Source: Liolophura sinensis (lineage: Eukaryota; Mollusca; Polyplacophora; Chitonida; Chitonidae). Taken from it: DNA of 64,000 nucleotides. The number at the start of each line of letters is the position of its first letter. Position 1 is the stretch's first letter. The stretch is from assembly GCF_032854445.1 (NCBI RefSeq), contig NC_088295.1, forward strand, positions 62,539,249 to 62,603,248, in the 5' to 3' direction. The notes beneath the pieces were generated by a model. It ran no database searches, was not told where the DNA came from, and saw nothing but the letters and a program-made list of their open reading frames with translations. The translations under genes were made by a program, and so were the position numbers. Positions 35,296-64,000 of this stretch are shown piece after piece.

Positions 35296-36949
35296 AACAC
35301 TTTGTTACCTACATTTCATACATACCACTGAAATCTTTTCAGATTATAACATCTTCCTGAACAGATGAATTGTCTTCTCTCTCCCTAGGAGAAAAATACT
35401 TAACCTTTCCAAGGTACCCAAATGAAGAAATAAATCTCATTTTTCAAGTCTGCAAAGAAATTAAAATCCAAGTATAAAATCCAAGTATCATATCATTTTA
35501 GTATTTCTACCTAGTTTCTATTAAAAACGAAGTGGCACTTTAACAGCTGAATTTAACTGAGTGTGAGGCCATTTAATTTATGAACCTAGAAACACTAAAC
35601 AATATCAAGAGAACATTTTGGTTCTAGTTGCTGAGCCATGGCCGTATGATAGCAATGTAACACTGAACTTCATTACCCCATCTCAAGCAGTCACTTCCTC
35701 CACACAGGTGTTACCCATGGCTTAAATACTCAAATTTAAATGTTTATGTGGGCAGTCACAACTCAAAACCGACATTGACAGGTAAACAATTTCTGTGCAT
35801 GCTAAAACAGCAATCTGACAGACAACATGGCTCTTGCTCACCTTACTGTCTGATAATTTCCATTTGACAAAATAAGTAGTACGGAATGCTTTTAAACTTG
35901 ATATATACAGATATGCACTTTAGTCTTTCTTCTGAGTTGAGCAAATGATACAGACTTTATCACGAAATATTTTGATTGAGTTTAATAATGTTCAGTTCAT
36001 AGGTAACACATCTGTCAAGTGGTATAACCACTTTGCACAGAGTAACCTTAATTATTTGTGTCTTTATTAGCATTCCTTGGCTGCCGATGCTTGCACTTGT
36101 TGTGTTTCCTTGTTACAGCTCGTTAGTCAAGAATGCCAGAATTCGATTCCTAACACCTGGTTCAATACTCATTTACTTATCATCTCTTACTTTGTTCCTC
36201 CAAATACTTGGTGTGCTGAAGCTCATTTTCTCTCCATGCTAAAAGCTTAGCGCAGGTCAAGATACTGTATACTTCATGCATCATGGATGCAAATATATAA
36301 CCTCTGATTTGAGTGGCGCAGTACAGTGCAAAACTGGATCAAATGTGCTGTACCATATTTTGCTCTGTCTGTTCACAGAAGAGTAGTCTGGTATCTCACC
36401 TAAAATAAACTCTGTGGTAAGTTGTGAAGTGCCTGGGATAGGAATAGCCTGTAAATTTGATAGCGTTATCTAAGAGATAACGCGAAAATGCAAGTTTGTC
36501 AGTGGGATTTCTCTTAGCAGTAAGTGTTTGAATACCCTAATTCTTTTAAAAATTTGAGACAGATATTAGTAGTGTTGAAAGTAGAATATTACATTTCTTT
36601 ACCAGCCATTTGGAAAATTAAAGATATGAGTATGTTCTTCATTAGATGGCCTAATCATGTGAGAAAAAAGAAACTCAATTTTCCTACTACAATTACATAT
36701 TTATTGGCTAAAATGAGCAGACCAGGTGTCCCAAAAATTAGAAGAAATACTGCAATGTATCACTATGCATACCTACGTGTGACAGTTGTGGATACAGGTG
36801 TTGCTTTTATTTCAAGAAATTCTGTAAATATATATGCTTCTCTGGTGGCTATGACGCATTAAATAACGCTTCACATTGTAATCCTCATGGCTGTGCTACT
36901 CGAATACAGGCCCAGTTGTTCAAACTACCTTAATACTAACTTTAACTTA
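35296..36949. other. No gene recognised
   Basis: A-T rich, with short open frames only. If the ankyrin/SOCS gene has an upstream 5' exon, it may lie here or further right; I could not identify it. Confidence 0.45.
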
Positions 36950-37515
36950 AAGGTGGAGAAAATATTAAAAATACATTAAGTTCAGATGAAAGATTGTGAA
37001 ATGTTAGTTATGAATGTGGTCTCCAATATTTTTTCGAATTTTTTTTTTTAAGAGAAAAAGACACTTGAAAATAATTTTTGTATGATGGGTATTTGGGATC
37101 ACCTTTACATTTAAATAGTGTTACAAATGGGGGCGTAACATGTTTATAAAATATATTTGTGCTAGAATTTTTTTTTTTTTCAGCTGAAAAATGTGTTCAA
37201 CCTGGATTTGGATCATAATCATACTTTAATATATTCATAAATGTTATCATAATTCAGATAAAATCCATATGTTGGGATATAAACAACAAATTTACGTTCG
37301 TATAAATTTAACTGACATGCATCACAACCTTATTTAGAACAACGAAAATAAATACCAAAGGTTGATACCTAGTACCCACCGTACAAAAATATTCAAAAAA
37401 AAAATTTTTTCATAAAAAAAAAAAAACATCCAATGCCATATCTGCAAATAATTTTTCATGCTCTTTCATCTGAAATTGGCATCATTTCATGTTTCTTCTA
37501 CCTTAAGGCCAACTT
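36950..37515. repeat. Second fold-back element, same family
   Basis: The left part (cttaaaggtggagaaaat, ttcagatgaaagattgtg, tttttgtatgatgggtattt) matches the reverse complement of the right part (cttaaggtagaagaaacatg, ttcagatgaaagagcatg, tttttgtacggtgggtacta). This gives arms of roughly 270 bp. The inner portion (ggatataaacaacaaattt) is also shared, inverted, with the element at 7185-7690. Confidence 0.6.
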
Positions 37516-39363
37516 TTCTATTTTGTACTTTAATAGCACCAAAAAAACAACACTCCCTAATTCCTCAATCTTTTTGCATATGAAGAGCAACATTCAGCAG
37601 AATTCATGCACATTTTTAAGTTGATTTTTGGAGACAAAACTACAGTTGTTGGATTGGCCAATGTCTGTGCTTCACAAAAAGTGTAATTTTACAAGTCAAC
37701 ACTGAATAATGCCTTCAGAATATGCCTGAATAAACAATAAGGTTGAAGAATTACAGTAACAGTATATTAGGTGTGAACTAAATCTGCTGCTGTTATCATT
37801 TTTGCGGTGGACAACTGCATTGGCTACTGGGGTTCGCTAAAACCTTTAATACATAACATGACGTAAACCCAGAACTAACTAATACAAACAATTCAAACAC
37901 CTGCATGGGCCCAGCAGAGTTACCTATACAAGCACGTGTCATTTTCACACATGTTTACACTGTTTGCAGTGCAACTCGATACTGCTGAACCTTGTTTCAA
38001 GTTCAACTTAACCAACTTAACCATTCTCGGGATGTGATGAAGTATGAAACAAGGTTCTGCAGTATCGGATTACACCACCAGGATCAAGACGAAGTTATTC
38101 TACCCAAATTGGCCAAAAAACAAAAGGCTATTTTAATTCATTCTACCGCTCTCTTCACCCCTCTGATGAGATCATGAATTTTAGACCAATCAACGTCAAG
38201 CCGAGCAGTTCTCCTACATGTGCAGGCATTCAAAAGTGTGAATGAAATAGTGTCTAAGTGTTGCTTGAAGTTTTGCAAGAACAAAAGTGATATCTAGTAT
38301 AAACTAGACCCCGATATTTCACCTAAATCATAAAAACAAATCTAACATGTAAACAAGTTAAAATCCATTTGTTTGCACTAAAACATAGCAAGATGGCCTA
38401 TCATTCGGGGAGGTAAAAGTACCAGCAAGTAAGTTACGCGACACACTCTATGCTGTTTGAAAGGTCGTCTCTATTTAATATGTACAGTATATTTGCACAC
38501 GGCCCGCAACTAAGGGGTAGCATCAACAACACTGTCACTCTCAGGGTAACTGTAACACAGAACATATACGTCGACGATCGAGACTATATCACTTCTTCAC
38601 GAACAGCTGACACAGGCGCAAATATCGACAACACAGGAGTATGCAACATTATCAAAAGTTGACAGCGTCTAGAGATTGAAATATAATGAAACTGTTTGCA
38701 ATGTTTAACTTCAGCCGTACCCAAAACCTTGCACTTCAGAACCGGGACCTGCATAACGAAGATCGGTGATTCACTGACCACACCGAGACTACCTGCCGCT
38801 TACATCATCTAAAAATCTACAAATCTTTTTTAGCCAAAGAATGAACCGAATGCATCGATAAACATGTCTAGATTTTTAAAAACCATAGGTTGTGTTTGCA
38901 TCCCAGAACTGATTTCCGAAAAAGGCCATTTAATGGTGTTTTCGTTGAGATTAGCGGTGAACATTCTCAGCGTAGCATTCGAAATCACGCGCTTTCCTAC
39001 GTGATTCTACGTGCACCGACACAGCAGATGGCGAACGTACCAAACTATGGAACAATGCGCTAATTACAGGCGTTTGTGGTTATTATTATCATCTCTGTCC
39101 ATGCTCAAGTTGAACCATAGCAGTGTAAATATATTTACACACTTACAAATTGATTTTGCATAACAGATTTCACAGGGGATACAAGCATAGTTATCGTGAG
39201 TTCTTCACTGTGTTCTCGACTGAGGATAACCCAAGGCATGAGCTGATATACAAGACTTTTACCATATCCAGTCGATTAGACTGTAATGACATCTTGTTGC
39301 TTATATGTCATGCGAAGAGCGGTGACCTGCTTTGCCTTTGACTACAGAAAAGCCACCGTTTAC
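37516..39363. other. No gene recognised; GC content rises toward 39.4 kb
   Basis: 37700-37770 (aataaacaataaggttgaag, aattacagtaacag) is similar to 59985-60030, so a small dispersed repeat is present. Otherwise only short unsupported frames were found. Confidence 0.45.
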
Positions 39364-39426
39364 CTTGGCATACGCGATTACTTCTTCAAACTCACTTTTC
39401 ATGCCGTCTTTCGTGGGCGCCGCCAT
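39364..39426 (-). CDS. Possible first coding exon of an unidentified gene
   Basis: An ATG in a GC-rich context (aacATGGCGGCGCCC) opens 21 codons reading MAAPTKDGMKSEFEEVIAYA then K, ended by a good donor (AAG/gtaaac) in phase 0. The composition differs from the AT-rich surroundings and resembles a CpG-containing first exon. No continuation was recognised downstream. The ankyrin/SOCS exon at 33402 needs an incoming phase of 1, so a direct splice to it would break the frame; an intermediate exon would be required. No family was recognised. It could also be a chance short frame. Confidence 0.3.
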
Positions 39427-39660
39427 GTTGAATAACTTTCCCAAGCATAAACCAACGGCCAACTTCAGGACTAGGTCTTAGGCAAAATGGAGTCGCCCAC
39501 TTTATTTATGGGGCCCTGAATTGTGCAGACTGACTTTATTTATAATTTATCAACTTGAGGTACATATTAAAAATTTTTTATGGCATGCGCCTGTGAGGAA
39601 TGCATAACCTTGTCAATGGTATTTGATATTTAATTTTTCTTCTCTTTTAAAGCTGACAAT

Positions 39661-40311
39661 TGGGGGCCTCCGTGGCTCAGTCGATTAGCGCGCTAGCGCA
39701 GCGTAATGACCCAGGAGCCTCTCACCAATGCGGTGGCTGTGAGTTCAAGTCCAGCTCATGCTGGCTTCCTCTCCGGCCGTAAGTGGGAAGGTCTCTCAGC
39801 TACTTGCAACCGGCCCGGATAGCACAGTTGGTAGAGCGTCCGCTTCGGGACCGGTAGATCCAGGATCAATCCTTGGTCGAGTCACACCTAAGACTTTAAA
39901 AGAGGAAGTTGTAACTTCCTCGCTTGGCGTTCAGCATGAAGGGGATAGTGCAACGACTGGTTGACCCGTATCAGTATAATGGCTCGGGCGAGGCGGCTTA
40001 CTTGCCTTCGGTAAGTCGTCTCAGTGATGCAGCACTAAATAAAAGAGCGGTGGAAATCCGTCCTGCAACAAGGAGGCACATTACACGTGCATGCACCCTA
40101 ATGATTCCTTCGTCGTCATATGACTGAAAAATTGTTGAGTACGACGTTAAACCCCAAGCACTCACTCACTCTCAGCTACTTGCATATGGTCGTGGGTTTC
40201 CCCTGGGCTGTGCCCGGTTTCCACCCACCATAATGCTGGCCGCCGTCGTATAAGTGAAATATTCTTGAGTACGGCGTAAACACCAATCAAAAAAAAAAAA
40301 AAAAAAAAAAA
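39661..40311 (+). mobile_element. SINE-A copy carrying a nested SINE-B
   Basis: This is a tRNA-derived SINE with an A-box-like TGGCTCAG..GATTAGCG and a B-box-like GAGTTCAAGTCC, ending in a 3' tail (ttgagtacggcgtaaa) and a poly-A of over 20. It is flanked by a perfect 12-bp target duplication aaagctgacaat at 39649-39660 and 40312-40323. Its body is interrupted at 39808 by SINE-B. Confidence 0.9.
39809..40168 (+). mobile_element. SINE-B copy inserted into SINE-A
   Basis: This is a second tRNA-derived SINE (head ccggcccggatagcacagtt, A box ..GCACAGTTGGTAGAGCG, B box GGATCAATCC), about 360 bp, ending in gttaaaccccaagcactcac. The 16-bp duplication ctctcagctacttgca flanks it exactly at 39793-39808 and 40169-40184, within SINE-A sequence. 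Confidence 0.92.
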
Positions 40312-40381
40312 AAAGCTGACAATATTAAGTTTTATCTTTCTGCATGGCAGAGTTGAACTGCTGATAGTTGGATTCTGGAGA

Positions 40382-42565
40382 ATGTGGATGGTCATAACAA
40401 TGAAGTTAGTAGTTGCCCCATGCAGAGTAGAAAACCCAGCCATGAAGTTTTCTAGTTTGGAGGAAGGTGTTGATGAAATTGCCTTAATATTGGCCAAAGA
40501 GGTAGCTGAGTGTGGCACGCCTTCTGAACATCAATTTATTTCAACAAGGTTTGTTTTACAAAAGAAACGTGGAAAATGTAGAACTATTCTAAATTTATGT
40601 AAATTAAATGAGTTTGTTCAATACTTCCATTTTAAGATGGACACTTTGGAGGTCACCTTGGACATGGTTCAGCCAGGTGACTTTTTGACGTGTGTGAACT
40701 TGCAGGACGCAAAGCGGCATAGACAGTATTTGCGTTTTGAATGGAAAGAGCATTTGTAAATGCCTTCCATTTAGTTTGAGCAGCTCACCTAGAATACATA
40801 CCATAACTGTTACACCAGTTTATGCCTATTTTCACTTTCTTGGAATTAGGTGTGGTTATTACATCGTTGATTTGTGATTTATGAATGCTTCTCAAACAGG
40901 TTTAGTTGTGAGTGCATTCTGCAAGGTGGGTTTTGTGCCAAACTAGAAGTCTGTTTTGACACCCAGGCAAGAAATTACTTATGTGGGCTTTGTAATTAAT
41001 TCCTCCGATTTAACACTTAGTCTTAGGGAAGACAAGCTCAAAAAAGTGCTGCTTTGTTGAGCAGCTGTGTTAAATGCCTCCATATGTAAAATAAGTGAGG
41101 TGGCTAGTCTTATCTGTATTTATACTTCTTGTCCTAAGGCAGTTTGGCTTGCTTCCCTACATTACAAATATCTTGACCATAATAAGATTGTAGCATTTCA
41201 CCAGAAATGTCATATAAGAGTGGTATGATTTTGTTGATAAAGGTCTTGAGGACATAAAACAGGGGATTTTAATGTTCCATGTATGAATTAAGCTGGGTTT
41301 ATGTTGCCTCCTGTGGTTTTTGTTTCAGGCAGATGCCTCCGGTTTAGGTTGGTGTAGTGCGTAAGATTATCGAACTGTTAATGGCAGGTGGTCGTGTGCG
41401 GAGTCTTAACTGCACATAAATTAGTTGGAGCTTTTAGCTGTGTATTTTAGCATTACTGGCCTTGTGTCGTGACGTAAAAGGGCATCATATTATAGTGGAA
41501 TCTAACACTATGACAGTAGTTGTTTACATCAATAACGTTGGAGGGCGAAAGTTTAAGTTACTCGAGCTTGCAGTTACTTGAGTGTTACGTTCTTGCCTGG
41601 CAGGTTAAACTTAACACCAGACAGGCTTGCACGAAATTTCTGTGATTCAGCTTTATGGATGTTGGGTCGGTTCATGTTTACACGTATTGTGGTAAGGTTC
41701 TTTTAAACTTATATTGATTTGTTTGCCTCAGGATTAAATAAGCAAATTGATTGTTATTCATCTTGGGGACCGGATCCTCACGCTCATTTAGTGGATGCAG
41801 TCGGACGAGTTTAAATCCCTTTTGTTTTCCCCCTTTCCAGATCTTGAACAGTCATGACTGACTGCAGAAGTCGATAATTGTCATTCCCCATTGGAAGAAT
41901 CAAAATTGGTTCTCTCAGATCACAGTCATGTTGACAAGTTGCCTGTTTGTTTGCCTTGGCGTCCAACTCTTGTCACCCTAGCGGGGACAGACTGATATAA
42001 TCTAATGAGGAGGAAGCTTCAGAAATTTGTAAGTCAAATATCTGGATGAGCATCAGGAGTTTCTGCGGATGCTGCCCACATTTCTCGTCAAATCGTGGCA
42101 GTCGTCTACTTGCTGTCAGAATGAAGTCACCTGGTGTTGTTGGTTTCTTTAGTTACAAGTGGAGTGGGAATCCCCTTCGACCCTCCCATAGCCATGTGAT
42201 AAACTATTTGGCAGGACTTCAGCAATCGTCATCATGCAGTGTTCTTAACATTCACAGATCCATGTTATCTCAGACACTCAAGTGTATGGGTTATGATTTT
42301 CCTGACATTTTAGTTCGGAGGTTCATGAAAGGTTGTTTAGAGGCTAGGCCGCCTGGTCCTAGATACAGCTGTACTTGGAATGTTGCTTTAGTATTAGACT
42401 ATTTATAGCCTTGTTTGCCCTTAGGAGAGTTCTCCTAATGTCTTACTTTTAAATTTACCCCTTTGCTGGCTCTTCTAACCGCACAGAGGGTCAAAACACT
42501 GAAATCCTTCAGGGTTTCAAATATTATTTGTTTGCTTAAGTGGAATTTAGAAGTCGGTGAGGAGG
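40382..42565 (+). pseudogene. Decayed DIRS-like retrotransposon: RT, RNase H and N-terminal part of tyrosine recombinase
   Basis: Remnants of a DIRS-order element lie in order on the plus strand. Reverse transcriptase, 40490-40990: FVLQKKRGKCRTILNLCKLN, FHFKMDTLEV, then LPFSLSSSPRI just past a stop; the YxDD box is destroyed. RNase H-like part, about 41290-41560: QADASGLGWCSA, LELLAVYFSI and VESNTMTVVVYINNVGG. Recombinase N-terminal region, 42046-42510: VRRFMKGCLEARPPGPRYS and LLALLTAQRVKTL, which contains the first catalytic Arg. The frame is interrupted by many stops and shifts, so it cannot be functional. The order RT-RH-YR separates DIRS from LTR elements. It is broken at 42565 by the Penelope-like insertion and resumes at 43787. 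Confidence 0.8.
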
Positions 42566-43239
42566 TACACTGAACAAGGCATTCTTATGGATGTACAACT
42601 TCTTGGTTTATTTAACACAACGTTTCGATGCAGATACTAGCATCGTTATCAAGTGAATGACATCAAAATTACTACTGCGCTTATATATAGCAAGAGATGC
42701 AAATGTCAACAGATAAAACAAGAAGAGGGTAAACAGTCCTCAGGGGATTAAGGTGTCCTGGGGTGGGTGTTGGCATACTGACTAGGCTCGGTGGGGTTCC
42801 TGAGCGGTTTGGAGGATTAGCAGATCATAAGCTGAGGGGAGGTAGATGCCGTGATCTCTGTTCAGGCTGGGCTTTAATCTCTTAATCTGGATGGCTTCCT
42901 GTAGTTTTCGTTTCTTCCAATGGGGCTGATTCATGTTCAGTGTCCTGACTGTATTCCAGTTGATGTTGTGGGATGGGTTTTCATGGATGTGGTCAGATAT
43001 GGCAGATTTGGAGTCAAGTTTCTGTACTGATGATTGGTGTTCTTTAATTCTGGTTTGAAGCGGTCTGCCTGTTTCACCTATGTAGGAGTTGTTGCAACTG
43101 CATTTTAATTGGTAGACAACTCCTTTGGGTGGCTGGGGTTTGGTTGGTGTCTTCTTTCCTGTGGCATGTAGGTGGGTCTTTAGTGTGGTCAGGCTTCTGA
43201 AGACTGTTTCTATTCCAGTTGACTGTTTTATTAGGCGGG
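42566..43239 (-). mobile_element. Penelope-like element 3' fragment with GIY-YIG endonuclease domain (left, inverted copy)
   Basis: The minus strand encodes a GIY-YIG (Uri-type) domain: GVVYQLKC, then SYIGETGRPLQTRIKEHQSS, then WKKRKLQEAIQIKRLKPSLN and NRDHGIYLPSAY, in the order seen at the C-terminus of endonuclease-bearing Penelope-like retroelements. The reading frame runs from 43243 to 42782. It is 5'-truncated: no reverse transcriptase is present. The first 547 bp (42566-43112) are inverted and nearly identical to 43240-43786. Confidence 0.8.
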
Positions 43240-43786
43240 CCAATTAAAATGCAGTTGCAACAACTCCTACATAGGTGAAACAGGCAGACCGCTTCAAACC
43301 AGAATTAAAGAACACCAATCATCAGTACAGAAACTTGACTCCAAATCTGCCATATCTGACCACATCCATGAAAACCCATCCCACAACATCAACTGGAATA
43401 CAGTCAGGACACTGAACATGAATCAGCCCCATTGGAAGAAACGAAAACTACAGGAAGCCATCCAGATTAAGAGATTAAAGCCCAGCCTGAACAGAGATCA
43501 CGGCATCTACCTCCCCTCAGCTTATGATCTGCTAATCCTCCAAACCGCTCAGGAACCCCACCGAGCCTAGTCAGTACGCCAACACCCACCCCAGGACACC
43601 TTAATCCCCTGAGGACTGTTTACCCTCTTCTTGTTTTATCTGTTGACATTTGCATCTCTTGCTATATATAAGCGCAGTAGTAATTTTGATGTCATTCACT
43701 TGTTAACGATGCTAGTATCTGCATCGAAACGTTGTGTTAAATAAACCAAGAAGTTGTACATCCATAAGAATGCCTTGTCCAGTGTA
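43240..43786 (+). mobile_element. Penelope-like element 3' fragment (right copy, head-to-head with the left)
   Basis: This is a near-identical inverted copy of 42566-43112, starting inside the codons for QLKCSCNN of the GIY-YIG domain and ending at the same 3' terminus (gccttgtccagtgta). It lacks the 127 bp of extra 5' sequence present in the left copy, so the two copies are truncated at different points. The paired positions need no net gap over 547 bp; a few substitutions are visible, for example tgaacaagg against tggacaagg near the outer end. Confidence 0.85.
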
Positions 43787-44180
43787 TTATTTGTTTGAAT
43801 GCTTGAAATAAGCTGGTGGTTATAATTGATCAGCTGTTGAACACTTGTAAGAGGAATAGGCCTCCAAAACCTATTGAGTTGGTGTCCTATATGGACAAAA
43901 GTTTGTGTTGTTAGAACTTTGTTCATGTACCTGTAGAAAACTTAAGAATAGTTGGAAGAGTGCTCGGTGAATAGTTTCTTATAGAACTTTTGAGGCTGTT
44001 CAACCATAGAGAGATGGGTGACAGAGGTCTTATTGTTGTCAGGGATAGATACGGTGGTGTTTAAAGAACATTCATATCACTGCAACATCGGCAGCTTCTT
44101 TTAGGGGAGTGTATATAAAGGATATCCTGGACGTAGCTGATTGGTCATGATTTCTATCATAAGCCTTTAGAGGCGCCCAG
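43787..44180 (+). pseudogene. DIRS-like element, C-terminal part of tyrosine recombinase (after the insertion)
   Basis: Downstream of the Penelope-like insertion the same element continues. Around 44065-44160, read across a frame shift, there are the segments EHSYHCNIGSFF and VYIKDILDVADWS, which match the conserved C-terminal recombinase region (HSxR...A, then GxxxxDILxxAxWS) of DIRS elements. The catalytic Arg after HS and the terminal Tyr region are not intact. The link to the upstream part is inferred from order, strand and family. Confidence 0.6.
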
Positions 44181-44295
44181 GGGCCATTCCTTCATACACA
44201 GTGTGTTGTCATGAGTTCTCCAGTGTAGATGAAGATAATAAATAATGAGAATCGGCTTGTGTTTGTGCCTGTTGTTCATTCTTTAAACATGATAC

Positions 44296-44410
44296 TGTGA
44301 CCCCGAAAGGCCAAGGTCATGCATAAAAGGATTCCCCCTCTCATACCAGCATCTCTGATGTACCGGATGAGAGGGATTCTTTTAACATAACAAGGCCTTT
44401 CGGGATCACA
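44296..44410. repeat. Inverted-repeat hairpin next to the DIRS relic
   Basis: The outer arms 44296-44312 (tgtgaccccgaaaggcc) and 44394-44410 are inverted copies with one mismatch. An inner pair, 44325-44344 and 44367-44383 (atgagagggattctttt), is also complementary. It lies about 120 bp after the recombinase C-terminus and may be the terminal inverted repeat zone of the DIRS-like element; that role is inferred. Confidence 0.55.
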
Positions 44411-44709
44411 CCTACCCAGTTATGGTGTCCTTCACCTTCGCAGGTGAAGTATGTAGAACGAATGGTGTGTAATCTTGAGGTAGAGGCCGGACTGTTTTTT
44501 TCTCTTTGAAGATCACATGCGCGCTGACGGCTCGATAGCAATTCTACTGTGAACTCTCAAGGCTGAAAGGCCTCAGCAGAGATGATGATATGAGAGGAGG
44601 GAATTTTATTGCACCATATATGCCGGAGAATAGTGAAAAGATAAAAAATGTTCCTTATAGCTCAATAAATGTCGTTGTCCTTTACATACGATATCTTCCA
44701 ATACAATAG

Positions 44710-44963
44710 GGGGCCTCCGTGGCTCAGTTGGTTAGCGTGCTAGCGCAGCGTAATGACCCAGGAGCCTCTCACCAATGCGGTGGCTGTGAGTTCAAGTCCA
44801 GCTCATGCTGGCTTCCTCTCCGGCTGTAAGTGGGAAGGTCTCTCAGCAACCTGCGGATGGTCATGGATGTGCCCGGTTTCCACCCACCATAATGCTGGCC
44901 GCCGTCGTATAAGTGAAATATTCTTGAGTACGGCGTAAAACACCAATCAAATAAATAAATAAA
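44710..44963 (+). mobile_element. SINE-A copy with intact target duplication
   Basis: Full-length SINE-A with an (AAAT)n tail. The 13-bp duplication tccaatacaatag flanks it at 44697-44709 and 44964-44976. Confidence 0.9.
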
Positions 44964-44976
44964 TCCAATACAATAG

Positions 44977-46839
44977 TCTTGACCTTTTTTAACTCAAAGT
45001 TAGTGCGCATGATGGCATCCATATCGAGGTAGTTCACCCGAAACCCGCTCGGGGACACCCTATGAGGCACGGTATCAAAGACGGTTTATTCAGAGTAGAA
45101 AAGCACAGCAGGTATGTATGGCCAGCTCGTTGGGCTGACTGGACCCAGTTGTTCCTCCTTCCATTTCCACCTTCACAACTAAAAAAACATGTAGTCAACA
45201 ACTGTGGTTTGTTGTGACTGGGTTCACTTTCGTACTCTTTCATGCAGAGGAGCAAAGAAGGGCATCTTCGTGGCATGGTTTGTTGGGTGAGTGTTGAAGT
45301 CTGTCACGGATGCATTTCCCGCAGAGATTGAAATAGCCCCAAACATCAGGGTTAATGATGTAGTTGCGATATCTACTGGTAAGGGGAGATAACCGTGTAT
45401 TGGCAGTCTGTTTCGATGCAGTCACGTGATTAGGCACTTTTCCGTGGTAGAGTGCAAGTTTCTCTTGATTGCAGAAGCAGCCGAGCTTCAAAGGCGTGCA
45501 AGAACTATGTTACAGTTATTTCATCAACTGTTTATATATTAAGACTCAGTGTGTTACGTCCAGTTTAACGATATCAGAAATTCGACCTTTTTTTGGGTGA
45601 GCTTTGCTTACTCCAAAATTGTATATCTGTAGAACGACACCTTGGACTTATACAGCGCCCAGATTTCAACACTATTTATTACAATGCTTTGATATACTCT
45701 ACACTTTATCCTGTCCAGATGTGAGCAATGTAGTAGTCCTGACTGCGAAAGAACACAGTTTTTAGGAAGTACTACCTTAGCTGGCAGCCAGTTTGGCTTG
45801 CCAGCATTCAGTTCTAGGGCTGACCCTGAAGTCCGCGATTGCATGGAGCATTGGAGGTAAAAGAGATGGAGGCACCAATAGGCTAGTTACGGAATGTATC
45901 ACTGAAAGCGAGCAACGCGGTTGCGGGATTTACGGAGAGATCGATATATACCCAAATGTGTCGGATTGACAGTAAGGAACATTTACTGTTGTTCACATAC
46001 CCATTCAGTGTTCCCAAGCATAAACCGTCAACCGCATGACGTTTTTATGGAATATATAATATTACACATGAACATGTACTTTTTACTTTGTTCGTGTGAA
46101 CCCAAGATGAACAAGCCAACCAGCTTGTCCTTTCCTTGTCTTGTTAGCTTGCTTATTCAAAGATAAACAATGGGCTGCAGTGTGCAAAACTTTCGTTGAA
46201 TTTTAATTTTAACTAAAGACCACAAACAGAAGTATACAAAATTGCATTATCGGCAGATCGCCACAAGCGCTTGACTTGAAGCTACATTAAACCACGATGT
46301 TTGAAAATAGTCCGAGTCCGAAGCAAATTTCATATGAATTACTTGGGAAATGTATTATGTGCTAAAAACGTATAGTGTTCACATGCACGTTAACGGATTT
46401 CCTGTCCGATAATGAATTTGGGCAAATGGCTTGCAGACCCATTTTTTTCGGTCCGGGAAAGAAAGTCATGATGAATTTTTACTTCTGACCAATCAGCATC
46501 AAGAGTGTTGATGTACAAAAAACTTCACTGGAAACATGGCCACGAGTGAGTTGTACTGCTGATTGCAGAAGTTGAGAAGAATAATGTACACTACAACCTG
46601 TATGAGAAGGGTGTTATTTGGAAAAAAAAAATCTTAGCGTGTGAGGTCTGACAGAGCTAAGCTTGATTTTTATTTTAGCAGGCTAGCAAACTTTTAGCTG
46701 ATTTCGAAAACTGGCTACTATGACATTTAGCAGATAAAACCTATGGCACATTTCATGTTGGAAAAAAACAAACATAATTAAGCCTAGTAAATATAATGAT
46801 CACAGATGTTGCGTACTAGTTGTAAGTTTCTAGGGCTGA
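44977..46839. other. No gene recognised
   Basis: Several frames of 70-80 codons are present on both strands, but none has a recognisable motif or splice context. Confidence 0.45.
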
Positions 46840-47135
46840 ACTGCTTTATTAAGGATCAGCCACTGACAGTTTCAAAGTCGAGAGATGCGGGATCAAACCA
46901 AGGTTGGGTCATACCAAAGACTTTAAAAATGGTACTTGTTGCTGCATCCTTTGGCACTCAGGACTCCGAGGATAGAACAAGGAAGTAAGACTGGTTGGCC
47001 CGTTGTCAGTATAACTTGACATATCAACATGATGCCTCCGTTCAATGGCATGGACTCGTCCTGCCTTAAGGAGGCACATTATATACACATATCTAATGAC
47101 TCCTCCTCCGTGGTTTGTTGGCCGAGCCATCTGGG
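46840..47135 (+). mobile_element. SINE-C copy upstream of GCNT
   Basis: Plus-strand body: gggatcaaaccaaggttggg, accaaagactttaaaaatgg, gttgctgcatcctttggcac. The 3' tail is lost. Confidence 0.55.
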
Positions 47136-47274
47136 TTGGGCATCATTGACGCCATCCGCTGAGCCATCTAGGGCGGCTGGTGGGAAATTGGTATTTTAAG
47201 AACTTTTCAGTGCATAAATTAGATATGTAATTAATAACTAATGGTTTTTTTTTTTATTTTTTTTCTCTTCACAG

Positions 47275-47383
47275 GTTCGGGAACTGTCATATTTGATTCA
47301 GTGATGAGACAGTTGGCATTCTGGGTTATTGCAGTCAGTCTAAACTTACATGGTTCAAACCTGGATGTCGCTTGATTTTCAGA
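47275..47383 (+). other. 5' untranslated part of the first visible GCNT exon
   Basis: A long pyrimidine tract ending tctcttcacag/G forms a strong splice acceptor at 47274. The exon then runs 109 nt to the ATG at 47384. This implies at least one further upstream non-coding exon, which I could not locate. Confidence 0.6.
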
Positions 47384-50300
47384 ATGTTCAGAGCAAGACA
47401 CTTAAGGGTAAAATTTTTAGCGACAGGGGTGATATTGCTATTGTCACTGTTATACATACACAACATTACTTTTGCAAGGACGGGCATAACACCTTCTTCC
47501 CTGGTGTTTGGGAAATGCTGGGCCAAGACATATGAACGGTCAAAGGCATCCCAAATAAAATCACTTCCCCATGCTTTTAAACGCTCGATTCCTTCACAAA
47601 ATCCAGCCTCACCCCTTAATCAGGTGTTAAGATCACGGTTACCTGTGAGCCAGGTGAACTGTAGTGCCCTGCTTGATGGAGACAGAGAGGAACAAGACAG
47701 GGCAGAAGACATCATGGTTTCCAATCAACGCACCTTTCTCTCACCACAAGACTTCATGAAAATGGCGGAGAACTGCAAAATGTTTAGGATTTCCAGAGGT
47801 TACTTTACCAGTCCTTTAAGCCCAGAAGAAGAAAACTTTTCTATAGCTTTCAGTATAATTATGTACCAAGAGATTGAACAGGTGGAACGGTTGCTAAGAG
47901 CAATTTATCGCCCACAAAATGTTTACTGTATTCATGTGGACAGAAAGTCACCATTGGCTCTCCGACGTGGTGTGGAAGCAATAACCAACTGCTTTGATAA
48001 TGTCATTGTTATTAAAAATCCATTGAGTGTTGACTGGGGCCAAATGAGCGTGCTGGAGGCTGATCTTTTGTGTATGCGTGCATTGTCAGCATACAAAAAG
48101 TGGAAATACTTCATAAACTTGACAGGGCAAGAGTTTCCCCTGAGAACTAACCGAGAACTTGTGAAGATCTTACAGGATTACAAAGGTGCCAATAATATAG
48201 AGATGCTCCGAAACAGGTTTGTATCAAGTCTTGTCTACTACATCAGTCTCTACACTATTTTTATGTGCCCCCGCCTTTAGACGGAGCTTATTATGTCATA
48301 GAGATTTTGTCCATTTGTCCATCCATCCATATTCTTGTCATGGCCTTAACTCCAACAGTTTTCAACGTAGATTGATAATTTTTGGTGGATACATAGATGA
48401 CGATGTCTTGCGACTCACATTTGTCCATTTTCGCGGCCGTCATGGTAACCAGACAGCCATTTTCCTTATGTATAGTATATAGATACATATGATTTGGTGT
48501 CCGAGCTCTAACTCCAACAACCGGCCCTGATAGCACAGTTGGTAGAGCGTCCGCTTTGGGACTGGTAGATCCAGAATCAATCCTTGGTCGAGTCACACCT
48601 AAGAATTTAAAAGAGGAAGTTGTAACTTCCTCGCTTGGCGTTCAGGATGAAGGGGATAGTGCAACGACTGGTTAACCCATATCAGTATAATGGCCCGGGG
48701 GAAAGCCATCTCAGTGAAGCAGCACTAAATAAAAGAGCGGTGGAAATCCGTCCTGCAACAAGGAGGCACACTACATGTACATGCATCCTAAGGATTCCTT
48801 CGTCGTCATATGACTGAAAAATTGTTGAGTACGACGTTAAACCCCAAGCACTCACTCACGCTAACTCCAACAGGTTTCCACACAGTTTTAATTTTGGGTG
48901 GATACATAGATACACAGATGACAATTTGTCACGGTTCACACTTGTCCATTTTCACGGTTGTCATGGTAACCAGATAGCCATTTTCCTTATATATACTACA
49001 TAAATAGAAACGATTTTGTGTCTGGGCTACTGTTTTCTGCATGGTTTGGATTTGACGTGGACACCTTTGTGTAGATTCCCCCCAGGGGTTATAGTCACCA
49101 TAATGCTGCTGGTATTATACATTTAAAGAAATGCATTTGTTGAGGCATCTATGTATGTTACTTTCCCATGAAATGTCTGCTTGTTGCCACAACCCTTATG
49201 TAGGGTTAACATGTTGTCTGTGCGCTGCCACAACCCTTATGTGAGGTTAACATGTTGTCAGCATGTTGCCACAACCCTTATGTAGGGTTAACATGGTGTC
49301 TGTGTGCTGCCACAACTGTTATGTAGGGTTAACATGTTGCCTGTGCACTGCCACAACCCTTATGTAGGGTTAATATGTTGAGTGTGCACTGCAACAACCC
49401 TTATGTAAGGTTAACATGTTGTCTGTGTGCTACCACAGCCCTCATGTAGGGTTAATATTTTGCCTGTGCACTGCCACAACCCTTATGTAAGGTTAACATG
49501 GTGTCTGTGTGCTGCCACAACCCTTATGTAGGGTTAACATGGTGTCTGTGCGCTACCACAGCCTTCATGTAGGGTTAACGTATTGTCTGTGCACTGCCAC
49601 AACCCCTCGTAGGGTTAACATGTTGTCTGTGCACTGCCACAACCCTCATGGAGGGTTAACATATTGTCTCTGCACAGCCACAACCCTTATGTAGGGTTAA
49701 CATGTTGTCTCTGCACGGCCACAACCCTTATGTAAGGTTAACATGTTGTCTGTGCGCTGCCACAAGCCTTATGTGGGGTTAATATGTTGTCTGCATACTG
49801 CCACAACCCTTATTTACATGAGGGGTTAGCAAGTCTGCGTTCTGTCACAATCCTTATGAAAGGTTAACATGTCTGCTTGCTACCACAACCCTCATGTAGG
49901 GTTAACATGCTGTCAACTTTCTGCCACAATCCTTATGAGGGTTAACATGTTGTCTGCTTGCTAGCACAACCCTTATGTAGGGTTAACATGTTGTCTGCTT
50001 GCTGCCACAATCCTTATGTAGGGTTAACATGTTGTCAACTTTCTGCCACAATCCTTATGAGGGTTAACATGTTGTCTGCTTGCTGCCACAACCCTTATGT
50101 AGGGTTAACATGTTGTCTGCTTGCTGCCACAATCCTTATGTAGGGTTAACATGTTGTCAACTTTCTGCCACAATCCTTATGAGGGTTAACATGTTGTCTG
50201 CTTGCTGCCACAACCCTTATGTAGGGTTAACATGTTGTCTGTGTGCTGCCACAATCCTTATGTAGGGTTAACATGTTGTCAGTGCACTGCCACAAGCCTC

Positions 50301-53300
50301 ATGTAGGGTTAACATGTTGTCAGTGCACTGTCACAACCCTTATGTAGGGTTAACATGTTGTCTGTGTGCTGCCACAATCCTTATGTAGGGTTAACATGTT
50401 GTCAGTGCACTGCCACAACCCTTATGTAGGGTTAACATGTTGCCTGTGCACTGCCACAATCCCTCTGTAGGGATAACATAATATCTGCATGCTGCGACAA
50501 GCCTCATGTAGGGTTAACATGTTGCCTGTGGGCTGACACAACCCTTATGTAGGGTTAAAATGGTGTCTGTGTGCTGCCACAGCCTTCATGTAGGGTTAAC
50601 ATATTGTCTGTGCACTGCCACAACCCTTATGTAGGGTTAACATAGTGTCTGTGCACTGCCACAACCCTTATGTAAGGTTAACATATTGTCTGTGCACTGC
50701 CACAACCCTTATGTAGGGTTAACATGTTGTCTTTGTGCTGCCACAAACCTCGTGTAGGGTTAACATGTTGTCAGCTTTCTGCCACAATCCCTCTGTAGGG
50801 CGTAATATCTGCATGCTGCCACAAACCTCGTGTAGGGTTAACATGTTGCCTGTGGGCTGCCACAACCCTTATGTAGGGTTAGCATATTGTCTGTGCACTG
50901 CCACAACCATTATGTAGGGTTGACATGTTGTCTGAGCACTGCCACAACCCTCATGTAGGGTTAGCATGATGTCTGTGCACTGCCACTACCCTCATGTAGG
51001 GTTAACATGTTGTCTGTGCACTGCCACAACCATCATGTTGGGTTAACATGTTGTCTGTGCACTGCCACAAGCCTCATGTAGGGTTAACATGTTGTCTGTG
51101 CACTGCCACAAGCCTCATGTAGGGTTAACATGGTGTCTGTGCATTGCCACAACCCTCATGTAGGGTTAACATGGTGTCTGTGCACTGCCACAAGCCTCAT
51201 GTAGGGTTAACATGGTGTCTGTGCACTGCCACAAGCCTCATGTAGGGTTAACATGGTGTCTGTGCACTGCCACAAGCCTCATGTAGGGTTAACATGGTGT
51301 CTGTGCACTGCCACAAGCCTCATGTAGGGTTAACATGGTGTCTGTGCACTGCCACAAGCCTCATGTAGGGTTAACATGGTGTCTGTGCACTGCCACAAGC
51401 CTCATGTAGGGTTAACATGGTGTCAGTGCACTGCCACAAGCCTCATGTAAGGTTAACATGTTGTCAGTGCACTGCCACAAGCCTCATGTAGGGTTAACAT
51501 GTTGTCAGTGCACTGCCACAAGCCTCATGTAAGGTTAACATGTTGTCAGTGCACTGCCACAAGCCTCATGTAGGGTTAACATGTTGTCTGTGCACTGCCA
51601 CTATCCTCATGTAGGGTTAACATGGTGTCTGTGCACTGCCACAAGCCTCATGTAGGGTTAACATGGTGTCTGTGCACTGCCACAACCCTCATGTAGGGTT
51701 AACATGGTGTCTGTGCACTGCCACTATCCTCATGTAGGGTTAACATGTTGTCTGTGCACTGCCACTATCCTCATGTAGGGTTAGCATGGTGTCTGTACAC
51801 TGCCACAAGCCTCATGTAGGGTTAACATGGTGTCTGTGCACTGCCACAAGCCTCATGTAGGGTTAACATGGTGTCTGTGCACTGCCACAAGCCTCATGTA
51901 GGGTTAACATGGTGTCTGTGCACTGCCACAAGCCTCATGTAGGGTTAACATGGTGTCTGTGCACTGCCACAAGCCTCATGTAGGGTTAACATGTTGTCAG
52001 TGCACTGCCACAAGCCTCATGTAAGGTTAACATGTTGTCAGTGCACTGCCACAAGCCTCATGTAGGGTTAACATGTTGTCAGTGCACTGCCACAAGCCTC
52101 ATGTAGGGTTAACATGTTGTCAGTGCACTGCCACAAGCCTCATGTAAGGTTAACATGTTGTCAGTGCACTGCCACAAGCCTCATGTAAGGTTAACATGTT
52201 GTCAGTGCACTGCAACAAACCTTGATATTGGAATGTTATGTGTACTATATCTATAGAGATCATTGGTAGTGTGACAGTGTTACATGGAACAGAAAAATGT
52301 CATCCAGAAATTTAAAGAGATTATACGAAACATTTTGAAGAATCAATCAATGTAAATCCAACTGAATTTTTTGCTTTTATTTAAGAATAGCCGAAATGGG
52401 TACCTTTCACAAAGTATCAGCCTCTTCTGTGCACACATTACCACAAAAAATCGGTCATAAAGTTTCTAAAATTTATAAAGCAGATCACATTATGACTGTT
52501 TCAAACTATAGAACCATTTTAACACTGCAGTACATACAAATACATGTAGTACAGTTATGAGTAATAATTTGAGATAATCTTGGTAAAAATAGAGAAAATC
52601 TGATTTGGTTAACTCTTAAATGTTTTTTTTCATACCCCATAATGCATCATGTACACATATGTACACATATATGACAGTAGATAATGAATAGACAATCATT
52701 AACTACATGTATTCAGTCATTGGACAAACTTCTTCAGTGCTACTTCAGTTCAAAGAGAAACTACTGGAGTGAGTGAGTGAGTGAGTGCTTGGGGTTTAAC
52801 GTCGTACTCAACAATTTTTCAGTCATATGATGATGAAGGAATCCTTAGGTGCATGCACAAGATGTGCCTCCTTGTAGCAGGACGGATTTCCACCGCTCTT
52901 TTATCTAGTGCTGCTTCACTGAGACGACTTACTGAAGGCAAGTAAGCCGCCCCGCCCGAGCCATTATACTGATACGGGTCAACCAGTTGTTGCACTATCC
53001 CCTTCATGCTGAACGCCAAGCAAGGAAGTTACAACTTCCTCTTTTAAAGTCTTAGGTGTGACTCGACCAAGGATTGATCCTGGATCTACCGGTCCTGAAG
53101 CGGACGCTCTACCAACTGTGCTATCCGGGCCGGTCGAGAAACTACTGGAGGTGGAGATATTAAAATGTTATCAAGGAAATTCTGTGGAACAGATTGAGAT
53201 AAAACCATACTTCAGAAAGAATTACAGTGTATAACACTGTCTATTAAACAATTATAACTGATAAATTTTCAAAAATAAATATGCAGCAGTCTCCGTTATG

Positions 53301-61280: not shown

Positions 61281-64000
61281 ACTAAATGATCTGAATACTG
61301 TCTGGCGATGGTGTAGCATAGCAGACAAGTGATTCAGGGATAATGATCTGAAATACTGTCTGCCAATGGTGTAGCATAGCTGACAAGTGATTCAGGGATA
61401 ATGATCTGAATACTGTCTGGCAATGGTATAGCATAGCTGACAAGTGATTCAGGGATAATGATCTGAAATACTGTCTGGGGATGGTATGGCATAGCTGACA
61501 AGTGATTCAGGGATAATGATCTGAATACTGTCTGGGGATGGTGTAGCATAGCAGACAAGTGATTCAGGGATAATGATCTGAATACTGTCTGGCAATGGTA
61601 TAGCATAGCAGACAAGTGATTCAGGGATAATGATCTGAAATACTGTGTGGCAATGGTATAGCATAGCTGACAAGTGATTCAGGGATAATGATCTGAATAC
61701 TGTCTGGCAATGGTATAGCATAGCAGACAAGTGATCCAGAGATAATGATCTCAAATACTGTCTGGGGATGGTATGGCATAGCTGACAAGTGATTCAGGGA
61801 TATGATCTGAATACTGTCTGGGGATGGTGTAGCATAGCAGACAAGTGGTTCAGGGATAATGATCTGAATACTGTCTGGCAATGGTATAGCATAGCTGACA
61901 AGTGATTCAGGGATAATGATCTGAAATACCGTCTGGCAATGGTGTAGCATAGCTGACAAGTGATTCAGGGATAATGATCTCAAATACTGTCTGGTGATGG
62001 TGTAGCATAGCTGACAAGTGATTTAGGGGTAATGATCTGAAATACTGTGTGGCAATGGTGTAGCATAGCTGACAAGTGATTCAGGGATAATGATCTGAAA
62101 TACTGTCTGGCAATGGTGTAGCATAGCAGACAAGTGATTCAGGGATAATGATCTGAAATACTGTCTGGTGATGGTGTAGCATAGCTGACAAGTGATTCAG
62201 GGATAATGATCTCAAATACTGTCTGGCAATGGTGTAGCATAGCAGACAAGTGATTCAGGGATAATGATCTGAAATACTGTCTGGGGATGGTATGGTATAG
62301 CTGACAAGTGATTCAGGGATAATGATCTGAATACTGTCTGGTGATGGTGTAGCATAGCTGACAAGTGATTCAGGGATAATGATCTCAAATACTGTCTGGG
62401 GATGGTATGGCATAGCTGACAAGTGATTCAGGGATATGATCTGAATACTGTCTGGCAATGGTGTAGCATAGCAGACAAGTGATTCAGGAATATTGATCTG
62501 AAATACTGTCTGGCAATGGTATAGTATAGCTGACAAGTGGTTCAGGGATAATGATCCGAATACTGTCTGGCAATGGTGTAGCATAGCAGACAAGTGATTC
62601 AGGGATAATGATCTGAAATACTGTCTGGTGATGGTATGGCATAGCTGACAAGTGATTCAGGGATAATGATCTGAATTCTGTCTGGCAATGGTGTAGCATA
62701 GCAGACAAGTGATTCAGGGATAATGATCTGAATGCTGTCTGGCAATGGTATAGCATAGCTGACAAGCGATTCAGAGATAATGATCTCAAATACTGTCTGG
62801 GGATGGTATAGCATAGCAGACAAGTGATTCAGGGATAATGATCTGAAATACTGTCGGGCAATGGTGTAGCATAGCTGACAAGTGATTCAGGGATAATGAT
62901 CTGAAATACTGTCTGGCAATGGTATAGTATAGCTGACAAGTGATTTAGGGATAATGATCTGAATACTGTCTGGCAATGGTGTAGCATAGCAGACAAGTGA
63001 TTCAGGGATAATGATCTGAAATACTGTCTGGCAATGGTGTAGCATAGCTGACAAGTGATTCAGGGATAATGATCTGAATACTGTCTGGCAATGGTGTAGC
63101 ATAGCTGACAAGTGATTCAGGGATAATGATCTGAATACTGTCTGGCGATGGTATAGCATAGCTGACAAGTGATTTAGGGATAATGATCTGAAATACTGTC
63201 TGGCAATGGTGTAGCATAGCTGACAAGTGATTCAGGGATAATGATCTGAAATACTGTCTGGCAATGGTATAGTATAGCTGACAAGTGATTTAGGGATAAT
63301 GATCTGAATACTGTCTGGCAATGGTGTAGCATAGCTGACAAGTGATTCAGGGATAATGATCTGAAATACTGTCTGGCAATGGTATAGTATAGCTGACAAG
63401 TGATTCAGGGATAATGATCTGAAATACTGTCTGGCAATAGTATAGTATAGCTGACAAGTGATTCAGGGATAATGATCTGAATACTGTCTGGTGATGGTGT
63501 AGCATAGCAGACAAGTGATTTAGGGATAATGATCTGAAATACTGTCTGGGGATGGTATGGCATAGCTGACAAGTGATTCAGGGATAATGATCTGAATACT
63601 GTCTGGCAATGGTATAGCATAGCAGACAAGTGATTCAGGGATAATGATCTGAATACTGTCTGGCAATGGTATAGCATAGCTGACAAGTGATTCAGGGATG
63701 ATCTGAAATACTGTCTGGCAATAGTATAGTATAGCTGACAAGTGATTCAGGGATAATGATCTGAAATACTGTCTGGTGATGGTGTAGCATAGCAGACAAG
63801 TGATTCAGGGATGATCTGAAATACTGTCTGGCAATAGTATAGTATAGCTGACAAGTGATTCAGGGATAATGATCTGAATACTGTCTGGCAATGGTATAGC
63901 ATAGCTGACAAGTGATTCAGGGATAATGATCTGAAATACTGTCTGGCGATGGTGTAGCATAGCAGACAAGTGATTCAGGGATGATCTGAAATACTGTCTG
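61281..64000. repeat. 57/58-bp satellite array running off the window
   Basis: The unit is ataatgatctgaaatactgt, ctggcaatggtgtagcatag, ctgacaagtgattcaggg; loss of one A (gaatac) gives the 57-bp form. About 47 units are present with variants at gcaatgg/gggatgg/gtgatgg and agctgac/agcagac. The minus strand shows many overlapping open frames because 57 is a multiple of three; they are repeat artefacts. Confidence 0.96.

Follow-up and report, generated by a model that had tools for sequence, protein, structure and literature searches.

How do two partial copies of a Penelope-like element (PLE) come to lie head to head, and does such an arrangement record priming from both strands of the target DNA or the folding back of an unfinished copy onto itself? 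The question is raised by a long palindrome in the window, the 64,000-nt stretch of Liolophura sinensis DNA that was analysed and to which all positions refer. An inverted-repeat search returned two arms of 547 nt each, at 42566-43112 and 43240-43786, which are 99% complementary and separated by a spacer of 127 nt. Counted directly, the arms differ at 3 of the 547 sites (42573, 42649 and 42775) and contain no gaps. The original prediction had placed a gapless inverted repeat with few mismatches around a 127-bp centre at these coordinates, and the count bears it out. All three mismatches sit 3' of the stop codon that the arms have in common, within 216 of the 547 nt, and the 331 nt that belong to the left open reading frame (42782-43112, stop included) are identical between the arms. 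Three differences are too few to decide between one and two template RNAs. The palindrome itself is far beyond chance, because the next longest inverted pair among the 25 longest of the 84 pairs found in 36000-48000 measures only 37 nt, at 70%.

The left arm, on the minus strand, holds the end of an endonuclease-type open reading frame (ORF) and a pLTR-like 3' region. The right arm, on the plus strand, is a copy with a stronger 5' truncation. The unmatched centre (43113-43239, minus strand) is a more 5' part of the left copy, and the left ORF runs through it in frame without a stop. Thus the left copy extends 127 nt further 5' than the right copy, and the locus looks like two 5'-truncated copies of what looks like one PLE, placed head to head. 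The unequal 5' truncation of the arms and their 5'-to-5' joining had been foreseen. The reading of the pair as head-to-head 3' parts of a PLE also stands as far as the arrangement and the PLE-like appearance are concerned, but its extent had been drawn too narrowly, since a 31-nt extension and a 13-nt direct repeat, described below, had been missed.

The assignment to PLEs begins with the coding part of the two copies. The left ORF fragment (42782-43243, minus strand) comprises 153 codons and a stop, with its first codon inside the right copy, and the right fragment (43235-43570, plus strand) comprises 111 codons and a stop, with its first two codons left of or across the junction. Both end at the same stop, and in a BLAST alignment they were identical at 110 of 110 positions, the stop included. 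The ORF sequence contains GVVYQLKCSCNNSYIGETGRPLQTRIKEH, and visible in its translation is GVVY...SYIGETGRP..TRIKEH, which we take to be the PLE form of the GIY-YIG endonuclease motif. When matches with E up to 1 were admitted, PHROG gave weak matches of the ORF to an endonuclease (E 0.0051), a GIY-YIG homing endonuclease (0.052) and an endolysin (0.062). Pfam returned no match for the ORF fragment at E up to 0.1, and the trimmed domain matched XhlA alone, at E 0.11 and below the XhlA cut-off. A PDB search with the endonuclease-type ORF gave no match at E 1, and the predicted structure of its product was unusable (mean pLDDT 38). The GIY-YIG label is putative and draws mainly on sequence motifs, with the weak PHROG matches beside them. 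The truncation of both copies falls 3' of the position expected for the telomerase-like reverse transcriptase domain.

The stretch 3' of the stop is putatively pLTR-like. Set against the PLE structures described in the available part of PMC3846280, inverted pLTR-like 3' ends are present at both limits of the insertion. The 3' region contains a GATGC/GCATC hairpin followed by GAAAC, which is stem-II-like, and an ATG at this hairpin opens a frame that closes after 11 codons in both copies. The bases preceding the hairpin presumably do not fit a hammerhead core, and Rfam gave no match to a hammerhead ribozyme in 42520-43800 at E 10, just as a search at E up to 1 had found none; a hammerhead motif is common in the pLTR of PLEs but does not define them. 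A match to MIR856 that spans the middle of the palindrome (E 1e-07; 40.3 bits, gathering score 297) was taken as an effect of the long hairpin. Relatives of the PLE were sought in two collections. In the viral contig collection, two scans gave six pattern-matching stretches, none of them confirmed, the second scan having no matches; in the genome contig collection, which may omit the window's own genome, none of 106 pattern-matching stretches was confirmed.

The insertion interrupts the remains of another element. To its left, ORFs on the plus strand mark a decayed host element at approximately 40300-42521, with an RT-like stretch near 40535-40759 and a tyrosine-recombinase-like stretch near 42199-42521 (limits approximate). 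The recombinase-like frame resumes to the right of the insertion, at about 43798-44000 on the plus strand, and the flanks, when joined, are in frame, with stops. By its RT-like and tyrosine-recombinase-like motifs the host relic is putatively DIRS-like. The relic pieces had no match in Pfam, and in the viral contig collection, which may omit the window's own genome, 18 pattern-matching stretches were found for the relic and none was confirmed. Right of the relic, at 44297-44410, short near-complementary blocks flank a hairpin, and the stretch gave a sub-threshold match to mir-320 (19.2 bits against 55.5); it may be a complementary region, terminal or internal, of the DIRS-like element.

How old is the PLE pair relative to this relic? 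The insertion appears to postdate the decay of the host element, because the PLE frames of 153 and 111 codons are free of stops while the joined relic frame holds three, between 42001 and the end of the recombinase-like stretch. The same order had been proposed in the original prediction and is supported by this comparison. The flanks also bear on whether the palindrome could be an artefact, of assembly or of fold-back in the library. Chimeric palindromes are known to arise as artefacts, and a fold-back of this kind would be expected to mirror the flanking sequence too. Here the flanks differ and carry a single old reading frame on from one side of the insertion to the other; the 31-nt tail and the 127-nt centre are one-sided, and a direct repeat bounds the outer limits. 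Judged by these features, a fold-back artefact appears unlikely, and we would give an artefact of either origin only the slightest chance.

Then, what lies at the outer borders of the pair? A 13-nt sequence immediately left of the insertion (42522-42534, plus strand) is matched exactly at the right end (43785-43797, plus strand). The first two nucleotides of the right repeat overlap the end of the right arm, and the duplication therefore measures 11-13 nt. It is rich in AT, with A or T at 11 of 13 bases as counted by eye. The flanks were resampled 200,000 times under a first-order Markov model; the 11 nt that follow the right arm turned up again in the 100 nt to the left of the left arm at a frequency of 6e-5, and a recurrence of 13 nt was seen in none of the resamplings. 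The direct repeat probably marks an AT-rich target site that was duplicated on insertion.

The left arm does not directly adjoin the left repeat: 31 nt (42535-42565, minus strand) separate the two and extend the left copy at its 3' end. The right copy is without them, and the right arm stops at the border of this tail. We regard the 31 nt as a putative tail of the element, on evidence from one locus, and since the tail is known from one locus, the 31 nt could alternatively be filler or host DNA. Two further arguments for a tail did not hold. The RNA with the 31 nt folds at -12.6 kcal/mol (z -2.72), with 1 of 200 shuffles equally good, and shuffled tails fold as well or better in 115 of 2000 cases. 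When the tail was replaced by other 31-mers, however, about a third of them did as well: 1661 of 5000 from the window (981 of 3000 in a second draw) and 1853 of 5350 from the relic. The hairpin was dropped as support for the tail. The reading frame of the relic is not decisive either, for it is open across the site with one copy of the repeat and likewise when the 31 nt and the 11 nt of the second repeat are kept.

The pair, the tail and the direct repeat are best read as one insertion. An alternative on this point is a history of two independent insertions, in which a PLE copy was inserted, in the opposite orientation, into or next to an older one. PLEs form partial tandems, according to the available parts of PMC3846280, PMC8969392 and PMC11167929, and an Adineta Pen2a copy described in the first of these excerpts sits in a Pen3 copy in the opposite orientation. 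In the present case, the copies meet 5' to 5' without extra DNA, one direct repeat encloses them both, and they differ at 3 of 547 sites only, so that two separate events are very improbable.

Given one insertion, which strand primed it? It is fairly probable, in our judgement, that the locus arose by one recent insertion of an endonuclease-bearing PLE through target-primed reverse transcription from both strands. The element protein would have nicked the top and the bottom strand of an AT-rich site at positions 11-13 nt apart. Each of the two resulting 3' overhangs would have primed antisense cDNA from the element RNA. The start on the top strand would have been 31 nt further downstream on the template, which gives the tail, and the start on the bottom strand nearer, which gives none. 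Neither cDNA would have been completed, the second falling 127 nt behind the first, and their unfinished ends would have been joined with very short homology at most. The overhangs of 11-13 nt, filled in later, would have become the direct repeat. The footprint at the end of this route is what the locus displays, namely a direct repeat on both sides of two copies with outward-pointing 3' ends.

The orientation of the arms agrees with this reading. The left arm is antisense in the top strand and the right arm in the bottom strand, which fits cDNAs that were started from the top-strand 3' end at 42534 and from the 3' end of the bottom strand, respectively. With antisense arms at each end, either limit of the insertion has the look of a target-primed start, and element 3' ends on both outer sides are what separate priming of a cDNA by each target strand should leave. 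The difference between the arms at only three sites fits a single event. Against this reading, the ATT cut motif was not exact at both inferred nicks. Twin priming of L1, which yields an inverted segment of one copy, shares with the present case two primers at one site, an inversion and a target-site duplication. It inverts part of one copy, whereas here both copies carry the 3' end, and it was set aside on account of the same 3' end on both copies.

Near-identical arms, however, suit fold-back synthesis equally well. In this alternative a cDNA, or an antisense RNA, folds back at its unfinished 5' end and is copied into the second arm, which agrees with the identity of the arms at 544 of 547 sites. 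The model proposed for the Penelope elements of Adineta in the available part of PMC3846280 is likewise self-priming on an antisense template, on the basis of palindromes at inverted junctions, and head-to-head is the arrangement most often observed there. The preference expressed in that excerpt would seem to oppose priming from both strands.

The junction falls at 43239-43240, where the last base found only in the left copy is followed directly, without extra DNA, by the base that begins the right copy. When exact palindromes were scanned at centres 43215-43259, the one centred on the junction had a half-length of 2 (CC/GG), and one of half-length 4 was centred 18 nt inside the right arm. 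CC/GG could act as a minimal primer for a fold-back, but this is all the exact palindrome that the junction offers, and a loop of 127 nt would be needed. Furthermore, copying of an arm should carry the 31-nt tail along, yet the right arm ends at the tail border. The one-sided tail and the lack of a junction palindrome beyond these two bases speak against fold-back self-priming. These objections would weaken if the 31 nt were not element sequence. On balance we consider fold-back self-priming possible but rather unlikely.

The direct repeat encloses the whole pair, which also agrees with a ready-made head-to-head pair that was moved or copied as a unit, the palindrome being constitutive in a derived element. 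Inverted pLTRs are recurrent in PLEs in the available parts of PMC3846280 and PMC8969392. Both copies here are nevertheless truncated within the endonuclease frame, and at different points, and if such a unit were reverse-transcribed over its whole length, its far side should not coincide with an apparent start site. When the left copy was compared with the 64-kb window by BLAST, the two copies and three matches of 17-20 nt were recovered, and no second instance of the pair was present within the window. A ready-made pair is therefore improbable. The original prediction had named a palindrome that is a normal constitutive part of its parent element as the finding that would overturn it, and this clause may partly apply, inverted pLTR ends being common in PLE insertions as far as the excerpts of PMC3846280 and PMC8969392 go. 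The same excerpts agree with its statement that inverted partial copies are a known trait of PLEs; in the available part of PMC12910113, inverted pLTRs are not mentioned.

The preferred reading, one insertion primed from both target strands, can be set beside published PLEs. In the available text of PMC3846280, PLE ends are inverted, mostly head to head, target-site duplications (TSDs) are short, and a 31-bp tail, as in Pen2a of Adineta, is optional at one of the ends. The Pen2a_Av/Pen2_Av elements of Adineta vaga in this excerpt resemble the present pair in having 3' ends at both limits, a head-to-head junction and a 31-bp tail on one inverted end, the tail being putative here, and 5'-truncated members with inverted pLTRs, as found here, are described as well. 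The TSD in Adineta vaga is 9 or 10 bp in two cases and absent in another, as compared with 11-13 nt here. Whereas the inverted partner in Adineta vaga is a pLTR of about 180-220 bp, both arms here extend into the endonuclease-type coding region. Junction palindromes are reported there and are absent here, where exact palindromes were scanned.

A biochemical comparison is offered by PAc, the Poseidon element of the lizard Anolis carolinensis (PMC11167929). The purified full-length PAc protein cuts both strands of its target and extends each of them, favours AT-rich DNA with ATT, and initiates reverse transcription internally on the template. The optional tail of 30-40 bp is equated by the authors with the stretch between two start sites of reverse transcription, and the commonest start lies 111-118 nt into the ORF, which begins at hammerhead stem II. 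The target of the present locus is likewise rich in AT, a stem-II-like hairpin precedes the 3' ends, and two putative 3' end positions lie about 30 nt apart. Measured from the start of this hairpin, the distance is 78-80 nt to the tail-less end and 109-111 nt to the tail end; the latter is near the 111-118 nt of PAc (PMC11167929), in a comparison that is post hoc and depends on the choice of hairpin. In contrast, cutting and extension of both strands have been shown for the PAc protein (PMC11167929), whereas the events proposed here are read from the sequence. The PAc ORF starts at stem II, whereas the ATG at the hairpin here yields 11 codons only, and a hammerhead core is not matched here in Rfam. 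PAc is arranged in direct tandems, and "inverted" occurs once in the main text of PMC11167929, for a blocked primer end; section 3 of that paper describes no head-to-head product, whereas the copies here lie head to head.

The arrangement is already known, while this copy is unusually clean and its borders are unusually complete. The locus favours both-strand priming over self-priming, and a new mechanism is not established by it. On how PLE insertion is completed, the available part of PMC3846280 infers self-priming from inverted structures, and PMC11167929 reports extension of both strands in vitro and states that additional steps still await experimental validation. If our reading is true, the locus is a nearly undecayed genomic footprint of the both-strand route, against the published self-priming model. 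The wider proposal, that head-to-head PLEs in general are one-event products of target-primed reverse transcription from both strands, with either template start used on each strand, seems to us evenly balanced between true and false. What to count in one genome in order to choose between the models is shown by a young copy such as this, in which the duplication is probable, the 3' ends are unequal and the 5'-to-5' junction is clean.

Other repeats were seen in the window. A tRNA-headed SINE-like repeat is present in two copies, at 39663-40300 and 44710-44963 (limits by eye), which flank the insertion on either side and are 89% identical over a 99-nt end stretch; the first seems to contain a second tRNA-like SINE at about 39808-40165. 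We take the look of these repeats to be molluscan. Two tandem arrays follow downstream, one at 49185-52222 with a 41-bp unit (74.3 copies, 88% matches) and one from 61285 to the window end at 64000 with a 58-bp unit (47.4 copies, 91% matches). An open frame of 327 codons at 47297-48280 looks like an exon of a glycosyltransferase, presumably of the core-2/I-branching type.
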